In this document: positions 4,404 through 53,147 of the stretch, one piece after another
How positions within the stretch are numbered: position 1 is the first letter of the stretch
Layout: each line of letters begins with the position of its first letter
Source: Sutcliffiella sp. FSL R7-0096
GTDB lineage: Bacteria; Bacillota; Bacilli; Bacillales; Bacillaceae_I
Direction of reading: 5' to 3'
NCBI RefSeq assembly: GCF_038595065.1
Contig: NZ_CP152003.1
Coordinates: forward strand, 4,754,001-4,818,000
Length of the DNA stretch: 64,000 nt
Program-made: the position numbers and the translations under genes
The notes under the pieces: model-generated
Told to the model about the DNA's origin: nothing
What the model saw: only the letters and a program-made list of their open reading frames with translations
Database searches by the model: none

Positions 4404-4578
4404 CCGGTTCCCCCACCATCCCTTTTTATCTTCTCTTCATTTTATAGTAGATTGGTAGATTTTAGTATAGATAATCGCCAATAGAGGAAGAAACTTCTTT
4501 CATTTCCCACATAGCCATTCCTAGAAAATTTTAGTATGATGAAAAGTAGATATTTTTTTAGATAGGATGGATACAAAC

Positions 4579-10215: not shown

Positions 10216-10235
10216 CAAGCCAGTGGATGTAACGC

Positions 10236-10270
10236 AAGGAGGTAGCAAAAACGCTACCTCCTTTCTTTTT
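10236..10270 (+). terminator. Terminator between convergent genes
   Basis: AAGGAGGTAGC pairs perfectly with GCTACCTCCTT across a short A-rich loop, followed by TCTTTTTC on the plus strand. It ends the TPR gene; the minus-strand neighbour stops at its edge. Confidence 0.85.
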
Positions 10271-39761: not shown

Positions 39762-40574
39762 TTAATATCCTGTCCCTTTGCCGCCTGTTACGATGGCGAT
39801 CCCGGAGCTTGCGCCGATTCTTGTTGCGCCTGCTTGAACCAGTTTTCTGGCTGTATCCAAATCACGTACACATGCTGACGCTTTGACGCCCATGTCAGGG
39901 CCGACTGCTTCACGCATGAGCTTGATGTCCTCTGCTGTGGCACAGCCTGGTCCGAAGCCTGTGGAAGTCTTCACGAAATCTGCTCCGGCCATTTTTGCCA
40001 GAATACAAGCTTTCTTCTTTTCTTCTGTTTCCAAAAGACCCGTTTCAATGATGACCTTCACTGGTGCCTGGCCTTTTGCAGCAAGCACGACCGCTTCGAT
40101 GTCTTTTTTGACGGTTTCAAAGTCGCCGGATTTAAGGGCACCGATGTTCATGACCATGTCAATCTCGGTTGCACCACTTGCAATCGCATCCCGAGTCTCG
40201 GAAACTTTTACAAAACTGTTGGTAGCACCAAGAGGGAAGCCGACTACTGTCGTAATCCCTACATTGGAACCCTGCAGCTCTTGAGCAGCTGTGGAAACCC
40301 AGTAAGGATTGACACATACTGTTGCGAAGTTGTATTCTTTCGCTTCTTCACATAGCTTGACGACCTGCTCTTTTGTGCTTTCTGGCTTTAATAGAGTATG
40401 GTCGATCATTCTTGCGATAGAAGGTCCTGTGATCAGGTTGGATGATGCATTCGCATAGCTGGTGCCGGTAGAAGCAGTTGAAGCTGCAGGTTTTCCTTCT
40501 GCCAGCTGTTGTTTATTTGTCAGTTGTTCCATGATTTGATTCGTAATTTGTTCCACCAATGCTTCCATTTGCAT
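39762..40574 (-). CDS. deoC: Deoxyribose-phosphate aldolase with N-terminal microcompartment peptide
   Basis: DeoC splits 2-deoxyribose 5-phosphate into acetaldehyde and glyceraldehyde 3-phosphate through a Schiff base. The Lys lies in [14 protein letters not shown], and the second active-site Lys in [11 protein letters not shown]. The protein is about 270 residues against about 220 for the housekeeping enzyme. The extra N-terminal 50 residues start with an amphipathic helix ([18 protein letters not shown]) and an Ala/Ser/Thr linker, as in shell-targeting peptides. The ATG at 40574 has GAGGTG six bases ahead; a GTG at 40583 has none. Last gene of the BMC operon. Confidence 0.93.
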
Positions 40575-40589
40575 TGTGTTCACCTCGCA

Positions 40590-40853
40590 TTAATGTAATC
40601 GGTCGACAATTCCGGCAATGACGGCATCAAAAGAGCCTTTGGGATCCTCTAATATATCTCTTGCCGCTCCACCTTCTTCGAGTATCAGTACATAGTCACC
40701 GGGACCTGCGTGAAAGCGGTCGAAAGCAATCATGGCATCGCCACATTCCTTGCCGCTCTCGTCCACCGGGATGACGACCATGAGCTTTTTGTTTTGATGA
40801 CTTGGTGTTTTAATCGTCGAAACGACATTTCCAACGACTTTTGCCAGTTTCAT
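40590..40853 (-). CDS. BMC pentameric vertex protein (EutN/CcmL)
   Basis: The 87-residue protein is of the EutN/CcmL type that caps the vertices of the shell: [17 protein letters not shown] at the start, LMVVIPVD in the core, [19 protein letters not shown] at the end. Its start overlaps the stop of the preceding shell gene by ATGA, and no separate ribosome site is seen, so the pair is translationally coupled. One of three pentamer genes in the operon, which suggests different vertex types or a regulated choice. Confidence 0.9.
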
Positions 40854-41125
40854 AGAGTGGTTGGAAGAATTTTTTCGATATCGGAATGTGGTCTTGGGAT
40901 CACATGTACAGATAGGAATTCGCCTACACGTTGCGCTGCATCCGCTCCCGCTTCTGTTGCTGCCTTTACAGCTCCTACATCACCACGTACCAATACAGTG
41001 ATTAATCCGCCGCCAACTTGAACTTTTCCAACTAAAGAAACATTTGCAGCCTTCATCATGGCATCTGCTGCTTCGATTGCACCTACTAAACCTTTTGTTT
41101 CGATCATGCCCAAAGCGTTGCTCAT
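40850..41125 (-). CDS. BMC hexameric shell protein (PduA/EutM type)
   Basis: The 91-residue protein is a single-domain [24 protein letters not shown], the pore-lining [20 protein letters not shown] and C-terminal [13 protein letters not shown]. Six copies form a hexagonal tile of the shell facet, with metabolites crossing the central pore. GGAGG precedes the ATG, which touches the stop of the upstream EutN gene. It is very similar to the second BMC-H protein at 42739. Confidence 0.93.
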
Positions 41126-41410
41126 TTATATTTCCTCCATTCGTTTTACGTTGTAATAGTCAATTATTCCTAGTATCCCAGCATCCGATGGGACAAGATC
41201 TTTGTTCAATGGCAGAGAGGATTCCCTGCTTTTAGCAAGATAAACAAGGTCCCCTTCTCCCGATTGACCGATTGTGTCAATAGCAACAAGTGGTTTGCCT
41301 TTATCCTGCAACTGATCATCTACTGGTTGGACGATTAACAGTTTCAACCCTTTGAGGTTTTCGTCTTTATGGGTACAGATCATATTTCCAATCACTTTTG
41401 CTACAAACAT
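41126..41410 (-). CDS. BMC pentameric vertex protein (EutN/CcmL), second copy
   Basis: The 94-residue protein has the EutN/CcmL core FVAKVIGNMICTHKDENLKG, LLIVQPVDDQ and LVAIDTIGQSGEGDLVYLA. The ATG at 41410 is chosen because the conserved core starts there; a longer frame to 41497 would overlap rpiB by 70 bases. It lies between rpiB and a hexamer gene, in the operon order of other metabolosomes. Confidence 0.88.
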   Translation of the reverse strand: MFVAKVIGNMICTHKDENLKGLKLLIVQPVDDQLQDKGKPLVAIDTIGQSGEGDLVYLAKSRESSLPLNKDLVPSDAGILGIIDYYNVKRMEEI

Positions 41411-41426
41411 GGGTCTAAACCTGCTT

Positions 41427-41882
41427 TCAGCGTTTAATAAAACGACTTTCGATTTCCATAACTTTTGTGACGCGACGATCGTGGCGGCCACCTGCAAATT
41501 CGGTTTCCAGCCATTTTTTCACCAATTGCTTGGCAAGGCCTTCCCCGATGAACTGACCACCGATGGATAAGACGTTGGCGTTATTGTGTTCACGACTATT
41601 GATCACAGAGGACAGGTCCCAGCAGACTGCTCCGCGGACACCCGGTATCTTGTTTAATACCATGCCGCTCCCGACGCCAACACCATCAATCATGATGCCA
41701 ACGTAATCCGGGTTTGTCGCGACACACTCGCCAACAAAGAATGCGATATCCGGATAATCCACCGATTCATTCGCTTTGCAGCCGAAATCGAGGTATTCAT
41801 ATCCAAGCTCCGTCAAATAGCCTTTTAAAGCTTCTTTAAGCTCGTATCCACCGTGGTCGCTACCGATTGCAACTTTTTTCAT
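41427..41882 (-). CDS. rpiB: Ribose-5-phosphate isomerase B
   Basis: The 151-residue enzyme interconverts ribose 5-phosphate and ribulose 5-phosphate. RpiB marks are KKVAIGSDHGGYELKEAL at the start, the catalytic cysteine in GVRGAVCWD, and the loop SREHNNANVLSIGGQ. Unlike the other enzymes of the operon it begins at the catalytic core without an amphipathic leader, so it may work outside the shell or enter it by another route. AAAGGAG precedes the ATG. In this setting it would handle ribose phosphates from ribonucleosides. Confidence 0.9.
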   Translation of the reverse strand: MKKVAIGSDHGGYELKEALKGYLTELGYEYLDFGCKANESVDYPDIAFFVGECVATNPDYVGIMIDGVGVGSGMVLNKIPGVRGAVCWDLSSVINSREHNNANVLSIGGQFIGEGLAKQLVKKWLETEFAGGRHDRRVTKVMEIESRFIKR

Positions 41883-41885
41883 TTT

Positions 41886-42725
41886 CTACGCTCCTTTGGC
41901 AAATACAGCGATTATTTTCTGAAAAGAATCTACCTGCAGGCTAGCACCACCGACAAGCACTCCATCAATGTCGGTCATCGCCGCGAACTCTTTCGCATTG
42001 TTCTCATTTACAGATCCGCCATATAAAATGCTGACCTTCTCTGCGTTCTCCTTATCAAGATGAGCGAGAACAGCACGGATGTATGCATGGATGCGCTGTG
42101 CTTCCTCCGCTGTCGAAGATTCCCCAGTTCCGATTGCCCATACCGGCTCATACGCGAAAACCACCTGGGAAACATCCATTCCGTCCATGGCACCGAGAAT
42201 CTGTTTGGTCAACACCTTTTCTGTCTGGTTCTGCTGCTTTTGTTCCAAGGTTTCCCCAATGCAGATGATAGGGGTCAGACCCTTTTTTAAGGCTTGTTTT
42301 GCTTTTAGGTTCACGGTTGCATCATCTTCTTGTGCGTATTGCCTTCTTTCGGAGTGTCCGATGATGCAATGAGTGCAACCAAGATCTTTTAACAGGCTTG
42401 CAGCCGTTTCCCCTGTGTAGGCGCCTTTTTCTTCTTGGTGAACATTTTGGGCACCTATTTGAATCTCTTTATTTTGTCCTTGGACGTAAAGCTTTGCGGG
42501 ATACAGGAGTGGGGCAGGTGGGCAAACCACCACTTCCACCCCGTTTCCTTCTTTAAGCTGTTGTAAAAAGTCCAGCGTTTCCTGGATGTTTTTGTTCATC
42601 TTCCAATTGGCGATGACGTATTGCTTCCTGCCGGTACTGGATGGCAAGCTGTTCAAAGAACCAGTGGATTGCTCTACCGCCTCTTGGACAAGTTGTTTGA
42701 TATAGGCTTTAATGGATTGATCCAT
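41886..42725 (-). CDS. tpiA: Triosephosphate isomerase with N-terminal microcompartment peptide
   Basis: The enzyme turns glyceraldehyde 3-phosphate into dihydroxyacetone phosphate. Active-site residues are present: NWKMNK, IIGHSERR and AYEPVWAIGTG. At 279 residues it is about 30 longer than standard TPI. The extra N terminus (MDQSIKAYIKQLVQEAVEQ plus a Ser-rich linker) is an amphipathic helix like those on the other enzymes of the operon. A second, glycolytic TPI should exist elsewhere in the genome. It would consume the triose made by DeoC within the shell. Confidence 0.93.
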   Translation of the reverse strand: MDQSIKAYIKQLVQEAVEQSTGSLNSLPSSTGRKQYVIANWKMNKNIQETLDFLQQLKEGNGVEVVVCPPAPLLYPAKLYVQGQNKEIQIGAQNVHQEEKGAYTGETAASLLKDLGCTHCIIGHSERRQYAQEDDATVNLKAKQALKKGLTPIICIGETLEQKQQNQTEKVLTKQILGAMDGMDVSQVVFAYEPVWAIGTGESSTAEEAQRIHAYIRAVLAHLDKENAEKVSILYGGSVNENNAKEFAAMTDIDGVLVGGASLQVDSFQKIIAVFAKGA

Positions 42726-42738
42726 CCTACTCTACCTA

Positions 42739-43128
42739 CTATTTCGCTGCCGGTAGAATTCCGTTTACTTCGGAGTTTGGACGTGGGATTACGTGTACAG
42801 ATACTAGGTTCCCGACTCGTCCTGCTGCATCCGCTCCAGCTTCTGTTGCCGCTTTTACAGCTCCTACATCACCGCGTACCATAACTGTCACAAGTCCGCC
42901 ACCAACGAGTTCTTTTCCTACAAGTGTTACGTTTGCTGCCTTTACCATTGCGTCTGCTGCTTCAATTGCCCCGATTAAACCTTTTGTTTCGATCATTCCT
43001 AATGCTTCTTGACTCATTTGAATTCCTCCTAATGGTTGTTTAATAGTTTTGGATTTTGATTGCTTTTTCGTTTTTTTAGGTGGTTCCACAGGCTGTCCCT
43101 CTTGAGGTAGTTCATTCAGTTCTGCCAT
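42739..43128 (-). CDS. BMC hexameric shell protein with N-terminal extension, possible dual start
   Basis: The C-terminal 92 residues are a standard BMC-H protein ([40 protein letters not shown]). The first 37 residues are Lys/Pro-rich (for example [14 protein letters not shown]). Both possible starts have good ribosome sites: GGAGGGGG before the ATG at 43128, and AGGAGG before the ATG at 43017. The outer start leaves 14 bases to the upstream gene, the normal operon spacing. Two forms of the shell protein may therefore be made from one gene. Confidence 0.85.
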
Positions 43129-43142
43129 TTTTCATCCCCCTC

Positions 43143-44576
43143 CTAAATGATTCTAAAGCTGTCTACCAGCACGCAACGTCTTTGGCGGGTGAAGGTTTTT
43201 GCTGAAGTAAGCCCTTCTCCCGTCGGACCTGCAATGGTGAGGGTGGTAAACCCTTCACTCTGGTAGCCAAGACCTGCAACAGATGGACCGTTTTTCACAA
43301 AGATGGTTGCTTGAATTTCTTTTGCCATCTTTGTCAGGTTGGTGACATTCTGAGAATGCATGATGGCAGTGTGTCTGTTTCCTTTTTCAGCTTTCACAGC
43401 AAGACTGATCGCTTTATCCACATCTGATACTCTGACAATTGGCAGGATTGGCATTAGCATTTCAGTGTGTACCAATGGGTGATCTTCCTTTGTTTCTGCA
43501 ATGATGAGCCTTACATTGGCGTCAGTCCTGATGCCTGCCGCTTCAAGCAGAACGGATGCGTTCTTTCCGATAAAATCGCGGTTCGGATAGTGCTTCTCCC
43601 CTTTTTTGACCAGCACTTTTTCAAGGAGCTTGTCCAACTGAAAGCCTTTCAGTTCGATGGCACCGTTTTTGGCCATCTCACTTTTTAAGGAGTTGGCTAC
43701 TTTTTCGACAACGAACACCTCTTTTTCCGCTGTGCAGAGGACATTGTTATCAAAGCTTGCGCCGGTTACGATGTCTTTTGCAGCTTTGGAAATAACTGCT
43801 GTTTCATCCACGACCACCGGTGGGTTCCCGGGACCTGCGGCAATCACTTTCTTCCCGGAGCTCATTGCCGCCTGAACAACGATGCCACCGCCTGTTACGA
43901 CTAACGCCTTTACTTTCGGATGCTTCATCACTTCGTTAGATGTCTCAATGTTGGGACTCGCAACAGAAGTAAGCGTGTTGGCAGGCCCTCCTGCAGCCAC
44001 AATCGCATCATTTAAAAGCTGCATGGTTTTGATGGAAACTTGCTTAGCACTTGGGTGTGGGTTGAAAACAACCGCGTTCCCTGCTGCTACTAGAGAGATA
44101 GAGTTGTTGATGATGGTTGCTGCCGGGTTCGTGGATGGGGTGATGGCACCGTAAACACCAACTGGTGAATACTCGACTAGGGTCAGGCCCCCGTCCCCGG
44201 AATAGGTAGTGGCAACAATGTCTTCCACTCCAGGTGTTTTATCAGCAGCCAAGAGGTTCTTCGCCACCTTGTCCTCCACTCGTCCAAGTTCCGTTTCTTT
44301 GACTGCGAGCTCTGCAAGGGCTTGGGCATGCTCCCTGCTTACTTCCCGCATCTTTTCTATCATGTTCTTGCGTGTTTCAAGTGGGATCGCCCTCAGCTTG
44401 TCCCATGCTTCTGTTGCAGCATCTGCAGCTTCATCGACAGTGCGAAACACACCTTTTCCGAGTGGGACCTCGCTGTTTCCCTGTTCAGGAGCAGGTGAGG
44501 GCTGTTTGTTTTCCCCCCCAAGCTGGGCAAGGACTTGAGCAACCATTTCTTTTATGTCGCTTTCCTTGATTTGCAC
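43143..44576 (-). CDS. CoA-acylating aldehyde dehydrogenase (EutE/PduP type)
   Basis: This 477-residue enzyme oxidises an aldehyde, probably acetaldehyde, with NAD and CoA to acyl-CoA. The catalytic cysteine lies in SFDNNVLCTAEKEVFVVE, and the NAD-binding region includes VTGGGIVVQAAM and AAGPGNPPVVVDE. The first 18 residues (MQIKESDIKEMVAQVLAQ) form the amphipathic targeting helix, followed by a Pro/Glu-rich linker. The GTG start follows AAAGGAGG. It is the core enzyme of a metabolosome and takes the toxic aldehyde produced by DeoC. Confidence 0.93.
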   Translation of the reverse strand: MQIKESDIKEMVAQVLAQLGGENKQPSPAPEQGNSEVPLGKGVFRTVDEAADAATEAWDKLRAIPLETRKNMIEKMREVSREHAQALAELAVKETELGRVEDKVAKNLLAADKTPGVEDIVATTYSGDGGLTLVEYSPVGVYGAITPSTNPAATIINNSISLVAAGNAVVFNPHPSAKQVSIKTMQLLNDAIVAAGGPANTLTSVASPNIETSNEVMKHPKVKALVVTGGGIVVQAAMSSGKKVIAAGPGNPPVVVDETAVISKAAKDIVTGASFDNNVLCTAEKEVFVVEKVANSLKSEMAKNGAIELKGFQLDKLLEKVLVKKGEKHYPNRDFIGKNASVLLEAAGIRTDANVRLIIAETKEDHPLVHTEMLMPILPIVRVSDVDKAISLAVKAEKGNRHTAIMHSQNVTNLTKMAKEIQATIFVKNGPSVAGLGYQSEGFTTLTIAGPTGEGLTSAKTFTRQRRCVLVDSFRII

Positions 44577-44578
44577 GT

Positions 44579-44878
44579 TTAATTACCTCCTTTTGTAAAG
44601 GTCAGGGATCCGTTCAGTTCTATCTGATCCACGATGCCTACAATGGCAGCGTCAACAGGTACCCCGTTCGTAATTTCTGTCTGTCTCGCAGAGCTTCCGC
44701 TTACGATCAAGACGACTTCCCCTACGCCAGACCCGACTGTGTCGATGGCAACAAGAGGTTTTCCATCTTCTTCGATTGTTTTTATATCAAGCGGTGTGAC
44801 GATCAGCAGCTTTTTGCCTTTGAGTTTTTCCGCTTTGGTGGTTGCGACGATGGAGCCTGTTACTTTTGCAATGATCAT
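44579..44878 (-). CDS. BMC pentameric vertex protein (EutN/CcmL), third copy
   Basis: The 99-residue protein has the EutN/CcmL pattern MIIAKVTGSIVATTKAEKLKG, trimmed here, LLIVTPLDIKTIEEDG and VGSGVGEVVLIVSGSSARQT. It stands just before the aldehyde dehydrogenase gene and follows the ~120-bp repeat at 44939-45058. AAAGGAGG lies ten bases before the ATG. Confidence 0.9.
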   Translation of the reverse strand: MIIAKVTGSIVATTKAEKLKGKKLLIVTPLDIKTIEEDGKPLVAIDTVGSGVGEVVLIVSGSSARQTEITNGVPVDAAIVGIVDQIELNGSLTFTKGGN

Positions 44879-44938
44879 GAGTGCGTTGCCTCCTTTCTAG
44901 GAGCCTATTAAAGCATATTAGTTTAACCGTTCCTTTTC

Positions 44939-45058
44939 GCTGCATGCATTCGCTTTCCGCGGGGCGACCTTGAGCCCTCCTCAGGCTACGCTCTGCGGGG
45001 TCTCAAGATTGTCGCTATCCCCCCGCAGGAGTCGAGTGCCTTCCGCTCCAATCCACTG
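44939..45058. repeat. Interspersed repeat, second subtype (copy 5)
   Basis: The interior matches the 7081 family (GGGGCGACCTTGAGCC, GGGGTCTCAAGATTGTCGCT, CCCCGCAGGAGTC), but the ends differ (GCATGCATTCGC and GAGTGCCTTCCGC). It is inserted between the flavoprotein and EutN genes of the BMC operon. Confidence 0.78.
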
Positions 45059-45070
45059 TTCTCTTCAGAC

Positions 45071-45808
45071 TTATGTTTCTTTTTGAATCTGGATCTTCAG
45101 CTCTCTTGCCATGTCTTTGGCAATGGGTGTGATTTTGCTATTCTTTGGAACCGATAAGGCTTTTACCTTACTCGTGGATGCACGCTCAATGTGCTTTGCA
45201 AGGACAAGTGGTTGCTTTTCCTGATATAGGTTGTGTTGTTCTATTGCAGTGCGTACAAGTTGATTCAACGGTACCCATTTCACTTGATCCTTTTGGGTGG
45301 TGCGCATGTAACTTTGCAGTTTTTCTTGAACAGAATAAGGTGCCAGAATTTGTTGATACACTCCAAGCTCCACTTCATTGTTGACGATGACGATCGGTTT
45401 TCCTAATAGCTGGAACTGGATGGCTGTCTGTGTGGTCCGGTCGTCATCCAGCATCATGGCAAGCTTTGATACTAATTGGAAGGAGGCTACCGGAAGAATC
45501 AGAAGGTCCGTCGATGTCCAGAGTGCCTGCAACTCCTGGTAACCTGCACTATCCAACGGCAGTACACCTTCTTCTCCTTCAAGTAGCTCCTTCCATTCCT
45601 TTGAAGCTACTATCCTCACCTGAAATGATGACTTTATTTCCGTAACCGCTTTCAAAATACTGTTTGGATCAGTAGATTGGTAGCTTAATAGGACGGTTAT
45701 GGATGGCTTATTTTTAACACTTTTGGTAATGGTGGTTTCGGCTTGTTCGGACATGTACGCTTCGACAGCCCTTTTGACAAGCTCTCTAACCGTTTCCTTT
45801 ACATCCAC
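45071..45808 (-). CDS. BMC-associated flavoprotein (UbiX/DFP-like fold)
   Basis: The about 245-residue protein has a flavoprotein-like Rossmann core: PSITVLLSYQSTDPNSILKA, then STDLLILPVASFQLVSKLA and QLLGKPIVIVNNEV. Proteins of this fold accompany several uncharacterised metabolosomes, where the reaction is unknown. The N terminus (VDVKETVRELVKRAVEAYM) is another amphipathic targeting helix, so it is probably encapsulated. I chose the GTG at 45808 by analogy with the other leaders; a GTG at 45814 is also near GGAGGGAGG. It overlaps pduL by about 23 bases. Confidence 0.72.
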   Translation of the reverse strand: MDVKETVRELVKRAVEAYMSEQAETTITKSVKNKPSITVLLSYQSTDPNSILKAVTEIKSSFQVRIVASKEWKELLEGEEGVLPLDSAGYQELQALWTSTDLLILPVASFQLVSKLAMMLDDDRTTQTAIQFQLLGKPIVIVNNEVELGVYQQILAPYSVQEKLQSYMRTTQKDQVKWVPLNQLVRTAIEQHNLYQEKQPLVLAKHIERASTSKVKALSVPKNSKITPIAKDMARELKIQIQKET

Positions 45809-46475
45809 AGCCACAACCTCCCTCCTTTTCTGGAGAACACTGTATTGCGGTAATTTTACCAAGCTGACCATTTTTAATGTTGGCTGCATTGGCCTCATCT
45901 AGATCGATGTGCATCTCCAACTTATATTTAGGTGAGACTCGGATCAGAACATTGGAGTAGGTAAGACCGCGTGGACCATCAACTTTTATATCCACCATGT
46001 CTCCGTCCTTCACCCCAAATCTCTCTCCATCATCCGGGTGCATATGGATATGACGGGAGGCGCAAATCAAGCACTCTTCCACTTTTATTTGTCCTCTTGG
46101 TCCCATGATCGTGATGGATTCCGAGCCTGCTAGATCTCCTGATTGGCGGATCGGCGGAGTCACCCCTAAGGTGTAACCATCAAACAAGGAGATTTCCACT
46201 TGGGTTTTCCCTCTTGCCGGTCCGAGAACCCGCACATTTGGAATTCTGCCTTTTGGACCTATCAGTGTTACCGTTTCTTTTGCAGCAAACTGGTTGGGTT
46301 GCGAGAGGTCCTTCAGCTTTTTCAGCTCGTAGCCCCTCCCGAAGAGGCGTTCCACATGTTCGGGAGACAGATGGATATGCCGGTTGGATACGGCAATCGG
46401 CACCTGTTTCATAGAAGTTTGCATGGTGTTCTGAACTACCTCTTGCACCAGCGCCTTAATGGTCGCTCGATCCAT
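45786..46475 (-). CDS. pduL: PduL-type phosphate propanoyl/acetyltransferase
   Basis: PduL converts acyl-CoA and phosphate to acyl phosphate and CoA, recycling CoA within the shell. The two metal-site motifs are present: VAVSNRHIHLSPEHVE and CASRHIHMHPDDGERFG, with a third site in HIDLDEANAA. The N-terminal helix MDRATIKALVQEVVQNTM is the encapsulation peptide. The C terminus is unusual: GGCGCGCKGNG, four cysteines or more in a glycine tail that standard PduL lacks. It overlaps the deoR stop by 20 bases. Confidence 0.92.
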   Translation of the reverse strand: MDRATIKALVQEVVQNTMQTSMKQVPIAVSNRHIHLSPEHVERLFGRGYELKKLKDLSQPNQFAAKETVTLIGPKGRIPNVRVLGPARGKTQVEISLFDGYTLGVTPPIRQSGDLAGSESITIMGPRGQIKVEECLICASRHIHMHPDDGERFGVKDGDMVDIKVDGPRGLTYSNVLIRVSPKYKLEMHIDLDEANAANIKNGQLGKITAIQCSPEKEGGCGCGCKGNG

Positions 46476-47427
46476 TGTTCCTCTCCCCCATTTCCAACAA
46501 AGCTTTTGCTGTATATTGATCGGTGATCAGGACATTGGCATAATTACCATTAAGTGCCCCTAAGATGCCTTCCACTTTCTTGTTACCACCTGCCACAAGG
46601 ATGCTGTATTCTTTTTCCGCCAAGTGGGAAAGTTCGATGCCAATGGTGCGGTCATTCAGAGATTGATTGCTGATATGTCCATTGATGTCGATGAAGCGCG
46701 AGCAGATATCCGCCACCGTTGCATTCTTCTTCAACGTTTCCACATCAGTGTCTAAAAAGTAACCCGCCCGCATAAGCGTCGACTGCTCCCCGGCCTCTCC
46801 TACAGTGTAGATGGCGATGTTGGCTTTTCGTCCGAGTTCCAGCACCTTGTTTATGTGTCTGTCTGCGACGATCGCCTGCTTTACGACAGGGTGATCCACC
46901 ACTGCCGGGACAGGTAGGAAGTGCGGTGTGGTATGGAACGCCGTTGCGAGACCATTGATAATATCAGAAGCGTGGGTGTTAAGTTCCGAGTAACTCACAC
47001 CGCCATTCAATTGCACAATTTCCACATCATGAACACTTTTAGGGTTAAGCTGCTGGGACAATTGATAAAGGGTTGTCCCCCAGGTAATACCGATCGTATC
47101 GCCATTTTTCACAATGCCATACAAGTATTCGGCCGCCGCCTCCCCGATTCTGCCTTTGATATGGTTATCTTCGTATGCCGGAACGGATGTGACAATGCAA
47201 TCTTTCAGTCCGAAGGTTTCTTGGAGCCTTGCTGCCAGTCCATTTATATCTTCTGTCGGATCACAAATTTTGATATGTACAACGCCATCCTGTTTTGCCT
47301 GGTCAAGCAGTCGTGATACGGTAGGACGAGATACGCCAAGCTTTTTGGCGATTTCCTGTTGGCTGTAATTGAATAAATAATACATTTTAGCCACTTCTAC
47401 TAAACGGGCTATTTTTTCATTCTGCAT
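46456..47427 (-). CDS. deoR: Deoxyribonucleoside regulator (SorC family)
   Basis: The 323-residue repressor closely resembles B. subtilis DeoR: helix-turn-helix YSQQEIAKKLGVSRPTVSRLL, then GDTIGITWGTTLYQLSQQL, the SorC effector site. The end is ERSILVAGG-type, here YSILVAGGNKKVEGILGALNG in part. B. subtilis DeoR responds to deoxyribose 5-phosphate. It is the first gene of the BMC operon, which fits a locus for deoxyribose breakdown. Promoter, operator-like palindrome and cre-like sites are upstream. Confidence 0.92.
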   Translation of the reverse strand: MQNEKIARLVEVAKMYYLFNYSQQEIAKKLGVSRPTVSRLLDQAKQDGVVHIKICDPTEDINGLAARLQETFGLKDCIVTSVPAYEDNHIKGRIGEAAAEYLYGIVKNGDTIGITWGTTLYQLSQQLNPKSVHDVEIVQLNGGVSYSELNTHASDIINGLATAFHTTPHFLPVPAVVDHPVVKQAIVADRHINKVLELGRKANIAIYTVGEAGEQSTLMRAGYFLDTDVETLKKNATVADICSRFIDINGHISNQSLNDRTIGIELSHLAEKEYSILVAGGNKKVEGILGALNGNYANVLITDQYTAKALLEMGERNNGSSDH

Positions 47428-47452
47428 GTTCGTTTCACCCGATTTTCAAATT

Positions 47453-47460
47453 ATGTTCAT
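47453..47460 (-). promoter_or_regulatory. DeoR half-operator (candidate)
   Basis: ATGTTCAT is the exact inverse of the ATGAACAT found in the palindrome at 47561-47573. It lies 26 bases before the deoR start, about 110 bases from that site, where a looping repressor could bind both. Confidence 0.4.
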
Positions 47461-47471
47461 GGAAAGAGTAC

Positions 47472-47482
47472 GAAAGCGCTTA
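47472..47482. promoter_or_regulatory. cre-like site 1
   Basis: GAAAGCGCTTA fits the CcpA box core (AAGCGCTT) within the deoR leader. Confidence 0.45.
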
Positions 47483-47526
47483 GAAACATGGTGATTTATG
47501 TAGAAAATTAGGTTCTTTCTTTGGTA

Positions 47527-47539
47527 GTAAGCGCTTTAA
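47527..47539. promoter_or_regulatory. cre-like site 2
   Basis: GTAAGCGCTTTAA resembles the CcpA consensus (TGTAAGCGCTTACA). It lies just downstream of the deoR promoter, the repressing position. Confidence 0.55.
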
Positions 47540-47563
47540 TAAACTTTTGTAAATCTACTAATG

Positions 47564-47573
47564 AACATATGTT
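47564..47573. promoter_or_regulatory. DeoR operator candidate
   Basis: AACATATGTT is a perfect palindrome extended on one side to ATGAACATATGTTAAC. It starts seven bases after the -10 box of the deoR promoter, overlapping the transcription start. Confidence 0.55.
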
Positions 47574-47579
47574 AACTTT

Positions 47580-47607
47580 ATTATAAACCTAGCAAAAATT
47601 CTGTCAA
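47580..47607 (-). promoter_or_regulatory. Sigma-A promoter of the deoR/BMC operon
   Basis: On the minus strand TTGACA (47607-47602), 16 bases, TATAAT (47585-47580): both hexamers are exact consensus. Confidence 0.85.
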
Positions 47608-47633
47608 TATATTTTATTCTTAATAGTCAGATA

Positions 47634-47647
47634 TGTAAGCGCTTGTT
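47634..47647. promoter_or_regulatory. cre-like site 3
   Basis: TGTAAGCGCTTGTT matches the CcpA box except near its end and lies upstream of the -35 of the deoR promoter. The remainder of 47648-47980 holds no gene that I can see. Confidence 0.5.
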
Positions 47648-47980
47648 TGGTATTATGTTTTTTTCGTATAAGGGTTGCTAAAGTAGAGGCGTTTTGGTCA
47701 TCTATTAGAGTAGAAATAGTTAAAATTAAAAGCTTTATAGTGAATTTTTGATCAGAAAGTGCTTCCCTGACGTTTGAAATCTCTCCAAATTTGCCATCAC
47801 CCGCAACCTACTGTCCGTATGGAGGGGAATATTGTCCGAATTTTTAAAACACAAACCAAACTCCCCCATTTACTGTCCAAGCTCACTTCAATACATGCCA
47901 ATCGACAAATGGCATCAAGGTTCGACATACACAAACACCTCTTTATCCCTGACTCCCTGCCAGCGCGCCATTCTTCACAC

Positions 47981-48013
47981 AAAAAAAACACGCCCTCCAA
48001 AATAGAGAGCGTG
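47981..48013 (-). terminator. Terminator of the nupOPQ operon
   Basis: On the minus strand CACGCTCTC pairs with GAGGGCGTG and is followed by eight T. It separates the transporter from deoR. Confidence 0.88.
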
Positions 48014-48027
48014 CCCATACTTCTAAC

Positions 48028-48978
48028 TTATCGTTTCCCAGAATCAAACGGTTCACCAACTGCTTTTGGTGCCTGAGAGGATTTCGAGAAAATGATCAAT
48101 GCGATCAATGTGACGACATACGGGAATACCTTCAAGAATACTGGCGGAATGACAGCCAATGAAGGGACTACCTGTGATACGTTCGCAACCGTAGTCGCAA
48201 AGCCGAAGAATAGCGTTGCCGCCAGGATTCCAAGTGGTTTCCACTGTCCGAAGATCAAGGATGCAAGTGCCAAGAAACCAAGGCCGGCAACCGTACCGTT
48301 GAATTCCCCGCCTGTTGTTACGATAAATACCGCTCCACCAAGTCCAGAGAAAGCACCGGAAATCATAACACCGATATAACGCATTTTGTATACGCTGATT
48401 CCGGCAGCTTCTGCAGCATGCGGATGCTCCCCGCAAGAACGCAAGCGCAAGCCGAATGGCGTTTTGTAAAGTAAGAACGCACTAAAAAGCAGAATGGCTA
48501 GAACCAACCAAGTAGTGGCATACGTTCTTGTGAAAAATAAACTTCCAATCACAGGGAGATCAGATAGAAACGGGATGTTAAATGGTTTCAATGTACTGAT
48601 TTGGATGTTTCCGCTTCCTGTGATATTACGTGCCAAGAAGACCGTGATGGCAGCAGCAATCATATTGATGGCTGTACCACTGATAATCTGATTGGCATGA
48701 AGATTGATACTTGCAAAGGCATGAAGGAGGGAGAACAATAATCCCATCAAGGTTGCCAAGGCAAGACCGATCCAGATCGCTTTTTGCTGACCGGGCATCA
48801 TCGCCTGCATCTTCAGGATGACAAGGGCACCTGTGAAAGCACCGATGACCATTAAACCTTCCAAACCGATGTTAACGACACCACTTCGTTCACTGAATAA
48901 AGCTCCCAGCGCTGTGATCAAAAGAGGGATAGTGAAGATAATTGCATACGGAGCTATTTGCTGAATCGTTGTCCACAT
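48028..48978 (-). CDS. nupQ: Nucleoside ABC transporter permease (NupQ-type)
   Basis: The 316-residue membrane protein belongs to the BPD_transp_2 permease group, with about eight to ten spans and the family motif LTALGALFSERSGVVNIGLEG at the start. A second motif is YKTPFGLRLRSCGEHPHAAEAAG. In B. subtilis NupNOPQ imports guanosine and other nucleosides. GAGGAGG precedes the ATG, four bases after nupP. Beside deoR and the BMC operon, it would supply (deoxy)nucleosides. Confidence 0.88.
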   Translation of the reverse strand: MWTTIQQIAPYAIIFTIPLLITALGALFSERSGVVNIGLEGLMVIGAFTGALVILKMQAMMPGQQKAIWIGLALATLMGLLFSLLHAFASINLHANQIISGTAINMIAAAITVFLARNITGSGNIQISTLKPFNIPFLSDLPVIGSLFFTRTYATTWLVLAILLFSAFLLYKTPFGLRLRSCGEHPHAAEAAGISVYKMRYIGVMISGAFSGLGGAVFIVTTGGEFNGTVAGLGFLALASLIFGQWKPLGILAATLFFGFATTVANVSQVVPSLAVIPPVFLKVFPYVVTLIALIIFSKSSQAPKAVGEPFDSGKR

Positions 48979-48981
48979 ACC

Positions 48982-50076
48982 TTATACCTCCTCCTTCTTT
49001 TCAGTCTCGGTCGTGTTACGAACGATCGCTGGTTGTTTTTTATTCTTCTTTTTATTGATGAAGTAACGGATCATTCTGTCTATCAGGATGCTTGTCGCAG
49101 CAAAATAGATAATGATTGCAATGATAGAATCCGCAATTTCAGGTGGAATGTCTGTCATGGCATTCATGAATCCACGGCCGGAATAAAGGAGACCGAAGAA
49201 GATTGCCGCCAATAAAACTCCGATTCCCGTGTTTGCTCCAAGAAGCGCTACAGCAATTCCATCGAATCCTTGCGTTGGCAAAATACCGATCTGAATGCTT
49301 GTCGCATTTCCAGCATAAAATGCCACCCCACCAAGACCTGCAAGTCCACCTGCAATGACCATGGATGTAACAATGCTTCTGTTTACCGCAATTCCTGCAT
49401 ATTCCGCTGAATCACGGTTAAAACCTACTGCTTTCAACTCATATCCAAGTGTAGTTTTATTAATGATAAAAGAGAAAATAATGACGGTGATGGCCGCAAT
49501 GAATAACCCTAAGTTAATGTAAGAGCCATCAAACATGTCCGTTAAAATCGGTGTGCGTAAAGATGCAGATTCCGGAAGCTTTTTAGATTCCGTTTCCAAG
49601 AACTCACCTTTAAAGTACGCAGGTACCGCATAATAAACCGTCCAGTATGCAATCCAGTTCATCATGATGGTGGAAACTACTTCGTGAACATTGAATTTAG
49701 CCTTTAAAAGGCCAGGAACGAATGCCCAAAGAGCTCCTCCGATAAATCCAGCCAACACCATGCAAACCAGCAATAGAGGTCTGGAAAGATCGAATGTCAA
49801 ACCTACTGCCACCGCACAAAAGCCTCCAAAAAGCATTTGTCCGGCCGCTCCGATATTAAACAAGCCGGTACGGAATGCAAAGGCTACGGATAAACCTGTA
49901 AAAATCAGTGGTGTAGCTGTTGCCAGCGTATTCCCTATTCTAGACAGGTTTTTCAAGCCGCCTTCGAATAAGTATTTATATCCTTCCACAGGATTGTTTC
50001 CTGTGACTGCCATCAATATCGCACCTGCAATCAGACCGAAAAGGACAGCAAGTAACGAGATTATGCCATTTCTCAT
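48982..50076 (-). CDS. nupP: Nucleoside ABC transporter permease (NupP-type)
   Basis: This 364-residue permease pairs with NupQ. Typical segments are ATATPLIFTGLSVAFAFRTG and NIGAAGQMLFGGFCA near residue 75, and GYELKAVGFNRDSAEYAGI. It has about ten spans and a positively charged, Lys-rich C-terminal tail. The GAGG box sits directly ahead of the ATG and its start overlaps the nupO stop by four bases (ATGA). Confidence 0.88.
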   Translation of the reverse strand: MRNGIISLLAVLFGLIAGAILMAVTGNNPVEGYKYLFEGGLKNLSRIGNTLATATPLIFTGLSVAFAFRTGLFNIGAAGQMLFGGFCAVAVGLTFDLSRPLLLVCMVLAGFIGGALWAFVPGLLKAKFNVHEVVSTIMMNWIAYWTVYYAVPAYFKGEFLETESKKLPESASLRTPILTDMFDGSYINLGLFIAAITVIIFSFIINKTTLGYELKAVGFNRDSAEYAGIAVNRSIVTSMVIAGGLAGLGGVAFYAGNATSIQIGILPTQGFDGIAVALLGANTGIGVLLAAIFFGLLYSGRGFMNAMTDIPPEIADSIIAIIIYFAATSILIDRMIRYFINKKKNKKQPAIVRNTTETEKKEEV

Positions 50077-51596
50077 TCCTCTTCCCCCTTCATCACGCCA
50101 GCCATCATTAGACCTAGTTCGTTTTCGTTTGTTTCTTTTGCATTCACGATTCCGACTAATTGGCCATTATTCACAACGGCAATGCGATTTGAAACATTTA
50201 TTACTTCATCCAATTCCAAGGATACAAGTAGAACAGCTTTTCCTTTATCCCTTTGTTCCACAAGTCTTTTATGAATGTACTCGATCGAACCAACATCCAA
50301 ACCGCGAGTTGGCTGAACAGCAATCAAGAGCGTTGGATCAAGCTCGATCTCCCGGCCAATAACCGCCTTTTGCTGATTTCCGCCTGATAGAGAACGGGCA
50401 ATCGATTTCCCACCTTCTCCAGAACGAACATCAAAGCTCTTGATAATGGAATCTGCATGCTTTTTAATGGCGGAAAAATTTAGAACGCCACGTTTGGAAT
50501 ATGGTTCTTTGTGATATAGCTCTAGCACCATATTTTCTTCAATCGTGTAATCAAGGACTAGTCCATGCTTATGGCGATCTTCTGGAATATGAGCGATTCC
50601 GCTGGCGATTCTTGAGCGAACAGGCATTTTTGTTATATCTTTTCCTTCAAAAAGAATCGATCCGGAGTCTGCTTGCTTCAAACCTGTAATGCTTTCCACA
50701 ATTTCAGACTGACCGTTTCCGTCCACTCCAGCAATTCCAAGGATTTCACCTTTTTTCAGTTCCAAGGACATGTTCTTCAAAGCGATTACATCCTTGCCCT
50801 TTTTCACAGACACATTATCCATTTTTAGGACGACTTCACCTGGTGTTGCTTCTTTTTTGCTGACTTTGAAGTTTACTTCGCGTCCTACCATCATTTCAGC
50901 CATTTGTTCTTTACTTGTTTCAGCTACATTAACAGTGCCAATTGTCTTTCCTCTTCTGATAACGGTACAACGATCTGCCATCGCTTTGATTTCTTTCAGC
51001 TTATGGGTGATGATGATAATCGATTTGCCTTCTGCAATCAGGTTTTTCAGGATCTTCCCAAGTTCTATGATCTCCTGAGGAGTAAGAACCGCAGTAGGTT
51101 CGTCCAAAATCAACACGTCTGCTTGACGATACAGCATCTTCAAAATTTCCACTCGCTGTTGCATCCCAACGGAAATGTCTTCAATTTTGGCATGCGGATC
51201 TACGTTCAGTCCATACTTTTTGGACAGTTCCTCAATCCTTTTGCTGGCAGTCTTTTTGTCGAGCACATACAAATTATGCAACTCAGAACCTAGCATAATA
51301 TTTTCTGTTACCGTAAAGTTACTGACCAGTTTGAAGTGTTGGTGAACCATTCCGATTCCAAGTTTAGTCGCGACGTTAGGATTGGCAATTTTCGTTTCCT
51401 TGCCATTAATTTTTATCGATCCTCTATCCGGTTGGTACATTCCGAATAATATCGCCATCAGCGTTGATTTTCCGGCACCATTTTCCCCAAGGAGGGCGTG
51501 AATTTCCCCCTGCTTCAGACGAAGTGTAATATCATCATTGGCAACTATTCCAGTAAACTCTTTCCGGATATTGAGCATCTCCACTACATAGTCCAT
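50073..51596 (-). CDS. nupO: Nucleoside ABC transporter ATP-binding protein (NupO-type)
   Basis: The 507-residue protein has two ATPase cassettes fused, as in RbsA and NupO: the first with GENGAGKSTLMAIL, the second with a Walker A variant GVDGNGQSEIVE that should bind but not hydrolyse ATP well. The second signature is RSLSGGNQQKAVIGRE. It energises import through NupPQ. GGGAG lies before the ATG. The repeat at 51670 and a terminator separate it from the binding-protein gene upstream. Confidence 0.9.
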   Translation of the reverse strand: MDYVVEMLNIRKEFTGIVANDDITLRLKQGEIHALLGENGAGKSTLMAILFGMYQPDRGSIKINGKETKIANPNVATKLGIGMVHQHFKLVSNFTVTENIMLGSELHNLYVLDKKTASKRIEELSKKYGLNVDPHAKIEDISVGMQQRVEILKMLYRQADVLILDEPTAVLTPQEIIELGKILKNLIAEGKSIIIITHKLKEIKAMADRCTVIRRGKTIGTVNVAETSKEQMAEMMVGREVNFKVSKKEATPGEVVLKMDNVSVKKGKDVIALKNMSLELKKGEILGIAGVDGNGQSEIVESITGLKQADSGSILFEGKDITKMPVRSRIASGIAHIPEDRHKHGLVLDYTIEENMVLELYHKEPYSKRGVLNFSAIKKHADSIIKSFDVRSGEGGKSIARSLSGGNQQKAVIGREIELDPTLLIAVQPTRGLDVGSIEYIHKRLVEQRDKGKAVLLVSLELDEVINVSNRIAVVNNGQLVGIVNAKETNENELGLMMAGVMKGEEE

Positions 51597-51669
51597 AGAG
51601 CGATTCTCCCTTTTTTGTTTTTGGCTGTTTTGGCGAAGGTAATTGTTTTTGCGTTTTCCCGTTTCTTTC

Positions 51670-51786
51670 CGCTACAGCCACTTGCTTTCCTCGGGGAGGG
51701 CCGAGAGCCTCCTCGGCTTCGCCTGCGGGGTCTCCCGTTTCCCTCTTTCTCCCGCAGGAGTCAAGTGGCTTTCGCTTCAATACACT
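51670..51786. repeat. Interspersed repeat, third subtype (copy 6)
   Basis: The ends carry GCCACTTG (51677-51684) and its exact inverse CAAGTGGC (51763-51770). The interior keeps the family blocks GAGAGCCTCCTCGGCTTCGCC, read in part, and CTCCCGCAGGAGTC. It lies between nupN and nupO. Confidence 0.78.
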
Positions 51787-51869
51787 AACAGGTGATGTCA
51801 GCATCAATCTTTACCAAAACAGTTTTTTTATCCCAAGAGGACAGACAACTAACCTCTTACATAGGCATT

Positions 51870-51892
51870 AAAAAAGGCGGGACCCCCCGCCT
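51870..51892 (-). terminator. Terminator between nupN and nupO
   Basis: On the minus strand AGGCGGG pairs with CCCGCCT followed by TTTTTAATG. If it is leaky, it gives more binding protein than membrane subunits. Confidence 0.8.
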
Positions 51893-51922
51893 CTTTCTGT
51901 ATTCATATGCCAGGCATTATTA

Positions 51923-53029
51923 TTATTTGATCAGATCGCCTTGCTCAGAAGAAACTTCCACTTCACCAGATTTAATCAGTTCAAAGATCTCATTCACTTT
52001 AGAAGTTGTTTCTTCACTTAGGTTTGGATTTTCTTCAGGAAGACCAACACCGTCGTTTTTCGCATCGAACGTAAGAGTTTCTCCACCTGGGAACTTTCCA
52101 TCGATTTCTGCTTTGATCATATCAGCTGCTGCTGTGTCGATTTTTTTCATTGCAGAAGTTAAGATAACTGAATCGCCATTGTCCATCTTTCCTTCTTCGT
52201 ATTGGTCAACGTCTACTCCGACCATCCATACATCGTCTCCGCCTTCAACACGAGTTTTCGCTTCGTTGATTGCCCCAACTCCAACTCCACCCGCTGCTGC
52301 GAAAATTACATTTACTCCACGGTCGAACATTGCTGCAGCAATTTGCTGACCTGCAGCAACTGCATCAAACGTACCTTGGTATACTACGTTTTCTTCTTTA
52401 ATGCTTACATTTGTATCTAGGTTTTCATTTGCATACGCGATACCTTGTTGGAAGCCCCAGTTGAACTTTTGAACTGGAGGAATTTCCATACCACCGATGA
52501 ATCCAGCTTCGCCCTCTTTTAATTCAAGAGCTGTTGCAACACCAGCCAAGAAACCAGCTTCGTGCTCAGCAAAGAAAATGGAAACTGTGTTTTCGCCTAC
52601 TACAGGATTGAAGTCCCCGTTGTGTGGAGCTCCATCGATTAGAACGAATTTAGCATCTTCAAATTGGCTTTGTGCTTGGAATACAGCTGTTTCAAATTTG
52701 AAACCTGGAGTTACGATAAATTTGAAGTCTGCATCATACAGGTTTGTAATCTCTTGCATGTAATTTGCTTCTGTTGTACCTGCAGGCTTTAAGTATTTTT
52801 CTTTAATGCCGAACTCTTCTTTCGCTTGAATGATTCCGTTCCAAGTACCTTCGTTAAAAGATTTGTCATCAATCGTACCAGCATCCGTTACCATTCCGAC
52901 TAACATGCCAGATCCGCTGTTAGTGCCTGATGCAGATTCAGAACCGCCTTTATTGTCTGTTCCGCAACCTACTAGAAAGATCATCGTTGTTAAAACAGTG
53001 ACGATCGTTGCAATTAAACCCTTTTTCAT
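51923..53029 (-). CDS. nupN: BmpA/Med-family nucleoside-binding lipoprotein (NupN-type)
   Basis: The 368-residue product has a lipoprotein signal (lipobox LVGC, Cys22) and a Gly/Ser-rich tether. The PBP1/BmpA domain follows: VGMVTDAGTIDDKSFNEGTW, a hallmark of the family, with ADFKFIVTPGFKFETAV and NVIFAAAGGVGVGAINEA. It binds nucleosides outside the membrane for NupOPQ. GGGGGAG precedes the ATG. An ATGAACATAT motif upstream suggests DeoR control. Confidence 0.9.
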   Translation of the reverse strand: MKKGLIATIVTVLTTMIFLVGCGTDNKGGSESASGTNSGSGMLVGMVTDAGTIDDKSFNEGTWNGIIQAKEEFGIKEKYLKPAGTTEANYMQEITNLYDADFKFIVTPGFKFETAVFQAQSQFEDAKFVLIDGAPHNGDFNPVVGENTVSIFFAEHEAGFLAGVATALELKEGEAGFIGGMEIPPVQKFNWGFQQGIAYANENLDTNVSIKEENVVYQGTFDAVAAGQQIAAAMFDRGVNVIFAAAGGVGVGAINEAKTRVEGGDDVWMVGVDVDQYEEGKMDNGDSVILTSAMKKIDTAAADMIKAEIDGKFPGGETLTFDAKNDGVGLPEENPNLSEETTSKVNEIFELIKSGEVEVSSEQGDLIK

Positions 53030-53086: not shown

Positions 53087-53115
53087 ACTATATTCGTAAA
53101 CTTCTAATATTTCAA
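53087..53115 (-). promoter_or_regulatory. Sigma-A promoter of nupN
   Basis: On the minus strand TTGAAA (53115-53110), 17 bases, TATAGT (53092-53087), about 58 bases before the start codon. Confidence 0.65.
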
Positions 53116-53131
53116 TATATGTTTTTCAAAG

Positions 53132-53147
53132 ATGAACATATTTTCAT
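53132..53147. promoter_or_regulatory. DeoR operator candidate upstream of nupN
   Basis: ATGAACATATTTTCAT lies about 17 bases upstream of the -35 box. Its first ten bases equal those of the deoR operator candidate at 47561. As I recall, B. subtilis DeoR binds a TGAACA...TTTCA palindrome centred near -50. Confidence 0.5.

Follow-up and report, generated by a model that had tools for sequence, protein, structure and literature searches.

A sugar-phosphate-utilization microcompartment locus in Sutcliffiella with an altered RpiB-like protein and a predicted DeoR operator before a predicted nucleoside importer

Introduction

The sugar-phosphate utilization (SPU) type of bacterial microcompartment (BMC) was named in 2014 and was already tied at that time to deoxyribose 5-phosphate and DNA (Axen 2014, PMC4207490). 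The same survey reports that one locus from Atribacteria includes a triosephosphate isomerase and that, in Marinimicrobia, an aldolase is fused to an isomerase. A later survey (Sutter 2021, PMC8217296) defines SPU by the presence of a PF01791 aldolase (DeoC) and a PF02502 protein in one BMC locus, counts more than 280 such loci in 26 phyla by 2021, which places SPU among the most widespread microcompartments, and reads the type as carrying an RpiB-type enzyme that isomerizes ribose 5-phosphate. Despite this wide spread, SPU chemistry has so far been inferred from gene names. Here, we analyzed an SPU locus in a 64,000-nucleotide stretch of the genome of Sutcliffiella sp. FSL R7-0096 (NZ_CP152003.1, positions 4,754,001 to 4,818,000), referred to below as the window, whose numbering is used for its features. 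As indicated by profile matches, positions 39762 to 53029 encode, all on the minus strand, the compartment genes, a Bacillus-type DeoR regulator, and a four-gene PnrA/Nup ATP-binding cassette importer.

In characterized RpiB enzymes, a Cys takes the C2 proton, and the C69S (Leishmania) and C69A (Trypanosoma cruzi) variants are inactive. Thr71 shuttles a proton between O2 and O1, and His102, the equivalent of His99 in the numbering used here, opens the sugar ring (PMC4783025). In LacAB, a single active site forms where LacA and LacB meet; LacB contributes Cys and Thr to it and LacA contributes His and Arg, and each subunit is inactive alone (PMC3755991).

We estimate a probability of roughly 0.7 that the locus specifies an SPU compartment degrading deoxyribose 5-phosphate, in which DeoR would act over the compartment operon and the importer, and in which the RpiB-like protein would serve DeoC in a role other than isomerization. 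The locus itself belongs to a known type; what is new is the residue change in the RpiB-like protein and the DeoR motif before nupN. In a search of titles and abstract openings of the microcompartment literature, with subscription papers largely outside its reach, neither this residue change nor a DeoR-Nup link appeared, and nothing joined bacterial microcompartments with Sutcliffiella.

Results and Discussion

The RpiB-like protein of the compartment lacks the isomerase base

The gene at 41427..41882 (minus strand) encodes a PF02502 (LacAB_rpiB) protein (167 bits) that is 100% identical to its counterpart in Sutcliffiella horikoshii DSM 8719. The original prediction, made from the sequence alone, labeled it simply as RpiB and missed the absence of the isomerase base: alignments place Asp66 at the position of the catalytic Cys, Val68 at that of Thr68, and Ser at position 72, with His99, Arg133, His134, and Arg137 kept. 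The corresponding motif reads IDGVGVGSGM, compared to ICGTGLGISI in RpiB of Clostridium thermocellum (PDB 3he8) and ICGTGVGISI in that of Escherichia coli (2vvr). In contrast, the fold and the phosphate-binding and ring-opening residues are shared with both enzymes (48% and 41% identity, respectively), and the AlphaFold2 (AF2) model (pLDDT 93.9) finds its best PDB match in 3he8 (TM 0.93). The protein passes the subfamily models NF004051 and TIGR00689. A normal C66 RpiB that keeps its own His99 is encoded elsewhere in the same genome (185 bits on the RpiB equivalog TIGR01120). By its residues, the window protein is not a normal ribose-5-phosphate isomerase and probably does not work as one, and the published role of the SPU PF02502 protein looks wrong.

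To place this change in context, 80 loci were compared, which are the best 80 of 248 relatives from a scan of GTDB genomes; 58 are BMC-linked and 22 show no shell gene in the stretch examined. A D66 protein is present in all 58 BMC-linked loci, two of which (L100 and L108) also carry a C66 paralogue. The 22 loci without a shell gene divide into 19 with C66 and three with D66 (L070, L078, and L102), and the genomes of those three (G076, G075, and G072) contain PF00936 genes. The genome of L073 (G062), an Anaerolineaceae metagenome-assembled genome (MAG) of the Chloroflexota, has no PF00936 gene, and a BMC-P gene adjoins its deoC. One clear D66 protein was found outside SPU, namely LacA of G021 (L123:2707-3111, minus strand; 186 bits on the LacA equivalog NF006380, cut-off 164).

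Residues were counted over 97 distinct core sequences covering positions 8 to 103 (66 D66 and 31 C66; rows shorter than 100 amino acids or with stops were left out). Position 66 is only ever Asp or Cys. At position 68, all 31 C66 sequences have Thr or Ser, whereas the D66 sequences have Val (43), Ala (16), Thr (5), Ile (1), or Tyr (1). Six other residues are almost invariant among D66 proteins: Asp9 and His99 in 66/66, His10, Arg133, and Arg137 in 65/66, and His134 in 63/66. In a sequence tree of 69 rows (those below 130 amino acids dropped, the rest thinned above 93% identity), the D66 proteins form one clade, lying on one side of a branch with support 98/84, and 99% of bootstrap trees require a single change. 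LacA of G021, which is one of the 66 D66 sequences, sits on a long branch of doubtful placement, and its join with the L185 protein is likewise flagged as doubtful.

The association was also examined in a held-out set of 251 genomes from the phylum of L073, of which 145 gave a match and 29 new best loci were read; because these loci were selected as top matches to an alignment of D66 proteins, L073 among them, they bear on the link between residue and context, not on prevalence. DeoC lies within the 1.5-kb flanks of 17 of the 18 D66 loci, seven of which also have a shell gene; the remaining one, L220, is a 2-kb stretch in which no neighboring gene was seen. None of the 10 C66 loci lies beside DeoC or a shell gene. 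In L229, position 66 is unreadable and DeoC is alongside.

LacA, the half of LacAB without the Cys, carries the same signature. LacA of the crystal structure 4lfk_A has Asp at position 66, Tyr at 68, and Ser at 72, and the signature Asp66, Ser72, and Met74 is common to it and the window protein, which means that in LacAB this signature belongs to the side outside the published active site. The two proteins differ in that the window protein keeps His10, which LacA has lost, and that its locus has no LacB partner gene; no second PF02502 protein occurs among the open reading frames (ORFs) of the locus. On NF006380, the window protein scores 105.6, below the cut-off.

Deoxyribose 5-phosphate has no C2 hydroxyl, which chemically excludes aldose-ketose isomerization. 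The RpiB-like protein therefore most likely binds it in a non-isomerase role. Loss of both enediolate residues together with retention of the ring-opening and phosphate-binding residues would be expected in a protein adapted to deoxyribose 5-phosphate.

DeoC and its companion enzymes

The remaining enzymes fit a DeoC-centered compartment. Such a pathway for deoxyribose 5-phosphate was part of the original prediction and stands in that respect, although it is not novel, having already been proposed in the two SPU surveys (PMC4207490, PMC8217296). The deoC gene (39762..40583, minus strand) encodes a class I deoxyribose-phosphate aldolase (TIGR00126 272 bits, cut-off 117), whose residues 55 to 272 match PDB 6d33 (E 1.5e-83). 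Further along the same strand lie the genes for triosephosphate isomerase (TPI; 41886..42725, PF00121 305 bits), an acylating aldehyde dehydrogenase (ALDH; 43143..44576, NF011927 667 bits, cut-off 403), and a PduL-type phosphotransacylase (PTAC; 45786..46475, PF06130 261 bits). Short N-terminal helices resembling encapsulation sequences were seen by eye on DeoC, TPI, ALDH, and PduL, and probably on the flavoprotein-like protein described below. In DeoC, helix and linker span approximately residues 1 to 53, and the second DeoC of the genome has no such extension. The Schiff-base Lys motif is present in 54 of 55 DeoC rows, the exception being a fragment from a genome in which two ORFs share the DeoC sequence, and the catalytic Lys, His, and Glu motifs of TPI are kept in 44/44 rows. 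As a separate observation, the loop past the second Lys of the window DeoC (residues 233 to 241) reads AC, where the other DeoC of the genome, Paenibacillus SPU loci, and other phyla have GG.

DeoC is encoded within the locus at 49 of the 58 BMC-linked loci, and nine show none. Replacement by a class II aldolase was considered and rejected, as DeoC is encoded elsewhere in 4/4 genomes checked, comprising three of the nine DeoC-less loci (L076, L079, and L098) and L078, which has no shell gene in its locus; L094, L096, and L097 were left out, and in L072, L074, and L104, contigs end approximately 1.5 kb or less from the D66 gene. The elsewhere-encoded DeoC ORFs of the four genomes (L201 to L204) span 459 to 516 amino acids with a long N-terminal region and adjoin a BMC-P gene in three of the four.

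This long N-terminal region resembles the flavoprotein-like protein of the compartment; BLAST shows the similarity in L202 (27% identity, E 1e-5), and in the other three it was seen by eye. The flavoprotein-like domain is thereby linked to DeoC in these four distant genomes. At the window locus, the corresponding gene (45071..45898, minus strand; PF02441/TIGR02536 kin) overlaps pduL as listed, and its start is probably near 45808. The gene had been called a flavoprotein in the original prediction; the gene itself is there, but the family assignment is weak, with 23.4 bits on PF02441 (cut-off 22.7) and 44 bits on TIGR02536 (cut-off 152.6). Its AF2 model (pLDDT 88.9) is nearest to the FMN-binding folds of UbiX, PPCDC, and EpiD, weakly (E of about 1e-5, TMq at most 0.5), and a PDB profile search gave no match.

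A predicted DeoR operator lies before the compartment operon and the importer

The first gene of the compartment operon encodes the DeoR repressor (46456..47427, minus strand), which carries a sugar-binding PF04198 domain and passes the Bacillus-type equivalog NF053881 (441 bits, cut-off 420). We scored the window for an operator with a matrix of two half-sites approximately 22 bp apart, trained on 39 related deoR promoters with the window excluded, although the seed consensus had been set by eye from promoters that included the window's own. The best predicted operator of the window is in the compartment promoter (47540..47572, minus strand; score 26.6), and the second distinct place is upstream of nupN (53114..53146, plus strand; score 16.2), compared to 9.9 at the best unrelated place. 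A score of 16.2 was reached by 3 of 3000 simulated 288-bp stretches and by 8 of 300 simulated 64-kb sequences. This predicted operator, common to both promoters, supports a tie between importer and regulator.

Sites upstream of nupN were scored at 19 of 30 loci, and those conserved across the genus do not count as independent. Among the compartment-bearing genomes of the genus, 11 of 12 have a site of at least 15.5, the other being G013 (5.6); the compartment-bearing G016, of another genus, has 4.5. The six genomes without a compartment gave 16.2, 11.7, 9.2, 8.4, -0.3, and -0.5. Paenibacillus L064, the only one of eight such loci with the nupN start in the stretch, has a site of 25.0 before nupN. 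DeoR of more than 70% identity is present in 13/13 compartment-bearing near relatives versus 0/5 of those from the genus or family without one (G007, G011, G012, G015, and G017; G011 is only 80% complete).

In Bacillus subtilis, nucleoside genes are organized in the deoR-dra-nupC-pdp and drm-pupG-pdp regulons. The window resembles this arrangement in joining a DeoR-type repressor with nucleoside genes. It differs in that its DeoR heads a microcompartment operon and that the phosphopentomutase-phosphorylase cluster is separate. That cluster, near 2.85 Mb in the single-contig genome of 4.9 Mb and 1.9 Mb from the compartment locus, comprises a phosphopentomutase (TIGR01696 675 bits), a purine-nucleoside phosphorylase (TIGR01700 402 bits), and kin of pyrimidine-nucleoside phosphorylase, scanned as a 229-residue piece; no operator site above 3.2 was found in its 10-kb stretch. 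A second phosphopentomutase (NF009049 494 bits) is located at 4.514 Mb, 0.28 Mb from the locus.

The importer follows the NupNOPQ/PnrA-type architecture, which predicts nucleoside transport. All on the minus strand, it consists of a nupQ-like permease (48028..48978, PF02653 143 bits), a nupP-like permease (48982..50076, PF02653 152 bits), a nupO-like double ATPase (50073..51596, PF00005 183 bits in two stretches), and a nupN-like lipoprotein of the PnrA/Bmp family, the binding protein (51923..53029, PF02608 225 bits). Of the NCBIfam matches listed for these proteins, none attained a nucleoside-importer equivalog. For comparison across genomes, we used the 40 loci of the Bacillaceae, Paenibacillaceae, and unclassified Bacillota (L030 to L068 and L074), 13 of which have an importer of this kind adjoining. 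In its stead, two Alkalicoccus loci have a second DeoC and another gene, which in L067 is a concentrative nucleoside transporter.

Relatives without the compartment retain the importer, so that it is not part of the cassette. In G007 and G012 it is kept between rluB and a beta-lactamase-family gene, and in G015 it stands beside rluB; in none of the three did the 19 kb read contain a match to DeoR or compartment genes. The importer is thus a resident operon, outside the cassette, that DeoR appears to have joined. In the nupN tree, G007 and G012 fall among the compartment bearers (support 0.94 and 0.79), which suggests compartment losses. These two genomes (L175 and L174, respectively) look as though each had lost the DeoR-compartment cassette independently; one of them retains an intact nupN operator, and in the other the operator has decayed. 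The view of the locus as a self-contained module for DNA-derived carbon is not supported, given the distance of the phosphorylase genes and of the second phosphopentomutase and the retention of the importer by relatives without a compartment.

Proposed function and alternatives

In the favored reading, that of a deoxyribose 5-phosphate-degrading compartment, imported deoxynucleosides would be split by the phosphorylases and phosphopentomutase encoded elsewhere, and deoxyribose 5-phosphate would enter the shell, where DeoC would split it into acetaldehyde plus glyceraldehyde 3-phosphate. Acetyl phosphate would arise from the acetaldehyde through ALDH and PduL, with coenzyme A recycled inside the shell, and TPI would drain glyceraldehyde 3-phosphate to dihydroxyacetone phosphate, pulling DeoC forward. 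DeoR would repress both the compartment operon and the neighboring importer. The RpiB-like protein would bind deoxyribose 5-phosphate and, with His99 and His134 for ring opening, serve DeoC without isomerizing its substrate. Phosphopentomutase recurs near such loci: in L079, a DeoB gene (530 bits, cut-off 256) directly follows the D66 gene, and the DeoB-containing cluster of L079 also follows RpiB in L096 and L097.

More specifically, and tentatively, the PF02502 protein by which SPU is defined could be an RpiB turned to a new use, namely to open the furanose ring of deoxyribose 5-phosphate before passing the open-chain aldehyde to DeoC in the shell. If this is true, the enzyme would still perform the first half of the RpiB reaction but no longer the second, which would explain an "isomerase" beside an aldolase whose substrate cannot be isomerized. 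If one of the two SPU-defining enzymes lacks its textbook activity, the pathway model of the type needs revision.

Several observations weigh against the favored reading. No importer of this kind lies in the stretch examined at 27 of the 40 loci. The nupN site keeps its full score in G012, which has neither DeoR nor compartment, whereas G013 and G016, which have both, have lost it. DeoR proteins of 48 to 58% identity occur in six compartment-less genomes of other families, so the regulator is also found apart from the compartment. Neither an alcohol dehydrogenase nor a PduS-type gene for NADH recycling was seen at the window locus. No encapsulation helix was seen by eye on the RpiB-like protein, so its location inside the shell is inferred. 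Finally, the protein falls only narrowly under the TIGR01120 cut-off (134.4 versus 138.65), and three other D66 proteins (L081, L102, and L108) pass it.

These profile scores would suit an active isomerase with Asp66 as its base, working on ribonucleoside-derived ribose 5-phosphate or another aldose phosphate, so that the compartment would serve both nucleoside sugars. Asp is plausible as a base: RpiB of Mycobacterium tuberculosis uses Glu75, which makes an alternative base possible, and the window protein presumably has Ser at the matching position. The RpiB fold and the phosphate-binding residues are present, Thr68 is retained in 5 of the 66 D66 proteins, and the published interpretation of SPU is one of RpiB-type ribose 5-phosphate isomerization (PMC8217296). 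However, both enediolate-specific positions are altered together in 61/66, a normal C66 RpiB is available in the window genome, and a second RpiB match exists in 11 of 14 distant genomes, and each of the eight that were read has C66, including two encoded in tandem with the D66 gene. In addition, LacA, in which the Asp66 side lies outside the published active site, carries the same signature. We regard an active isomerase as possible but doubtful.

The D66 protein might otherwise join a second RpiB in a heteromer of the LacAB kind, contributing the His99 side while its partner contributes the Cys66 side, as the mutual dependence of LacA and LacB (PMC3755991) would allow. The Elusimicrobia loci L100 and L108 (approximately 3833-4806 and 9983-11369) encode tandem RpiBs with Asp66/His99 and Cys66/Asp99, complementary in the manner of LacA and LacB. 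Against such pairing, the D66 protein is the only one of its family in the stretch examined at 56 of the 58 BMC-linked loci, and the C66 RpiB of the window genome, having its own His99, needs no partner. This arrangement is improbable. Equally improbable is that the protein serves the enzyme core purely as a structural or scaffold subunit: the missing isomerase base would be consistent with a protein devoid of catalysis, but His99, Asp9, His10, Arg133, and Arg137 are kept in 65 to 66 of 66 sequences and would be needless for a scaffold.

Since DeoC is reversible, the compartment could also work mainly by condensation, with deoxyribose 5-phosphate as a store for acetaldehyde and triose phosphate. 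For Atribacteria, condensation and storage of aldehydes has been proposed (PMC6281690, citing Nobu 2016), but the predicted DeoR operator common with the importer, DeoB next to the D66 gene (L079, L096, and L097), and PduL with its capacity to make acetyl phosphate all suit breakdown and make this the least probable of the alternatives.

The locus is a compact form of SPU without BMC-T

Judged by gene content, 39762..47427 is one form of an SPU microcompartment locus, with no BMC-T gene. It combines a PF01791 aldolase and a PF02502 protein with two PF00936 and three PF03319 proteins, ALDH, and PTAC, and family profile scores bear out the gene list of the original prediction in identity, order, strand, and span. 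Like the SPU loci of Axen 2014 and Sutter 2021, it has a DeoC-type aldolase, a PF02502 protein, an aldehyde dehydrogenase, PduL, BMC-H, and BMC-P; unlike them, it has no BMC-T ORF and starts with a Bacillus-type DeoR gene. The form may already belong to one of the seven SPU subtypes of Sutter 2021.

A search for this gene set in related genomes had been suggested, and it confirmed the grouping. At more than 35% identity, DeoR, PduL, ALDH, RpiB, DeoC, two BMC-H, and three BMC-P are each found in 39 to 40 of the 40 loci, which makes the grouping more than chance, and TPI in 37. Exactly two BMC-domain ORFs occur in 39 loci and one in L074, which is truncated. A two-domain (BMC-T) ORF is present in 0/40, in contrast to 14 of the 18 remaining BMC-linked loci. 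Several carriers of this compact form without BMC-T are named culture-collection strains (Sutcliffiella, Neobacillus, and Paenibacillus), which would make it a practical test system for SPU. Two SPU loci, L069 and L072, lie on MAG contigs labeled archaeal (Thermoplasmatota and Undinarchaeales, respectively), by binning error or transfer.

The shell genes are interspersed with the enzymes on the minus strand. The BMC-H proteins are encoded at 40850..41125 (PF00936 99 bits) and 42739..43128 (103 bits at residues 42 to 117), the second with a charged N-terminal extension of approximately 40 residues. The three BMC-P (EutN/CcmL) pentamer proteins are encoded at 40590..40853 (PF03319 84 bits), 41126..41410 (81 bits, from residue 30 of a long ORF), and 44579..44878 (102 bits). 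The second of these ORFs reaches 41497 as listed, and a Met near 41410 is the likelier start. Rfam and tRNA scans of the 64-kb window gave no matches. In the same genome, a second BMC cluster lies near 3.95 to 3.96 Mb (L120, 3950000-3968000) and looks eut-like (ethanolamine) by eye. It includes, again by eye, a lactate/malate dehydrogenase-like gene and a protein resembling the compartment flavoprotein.

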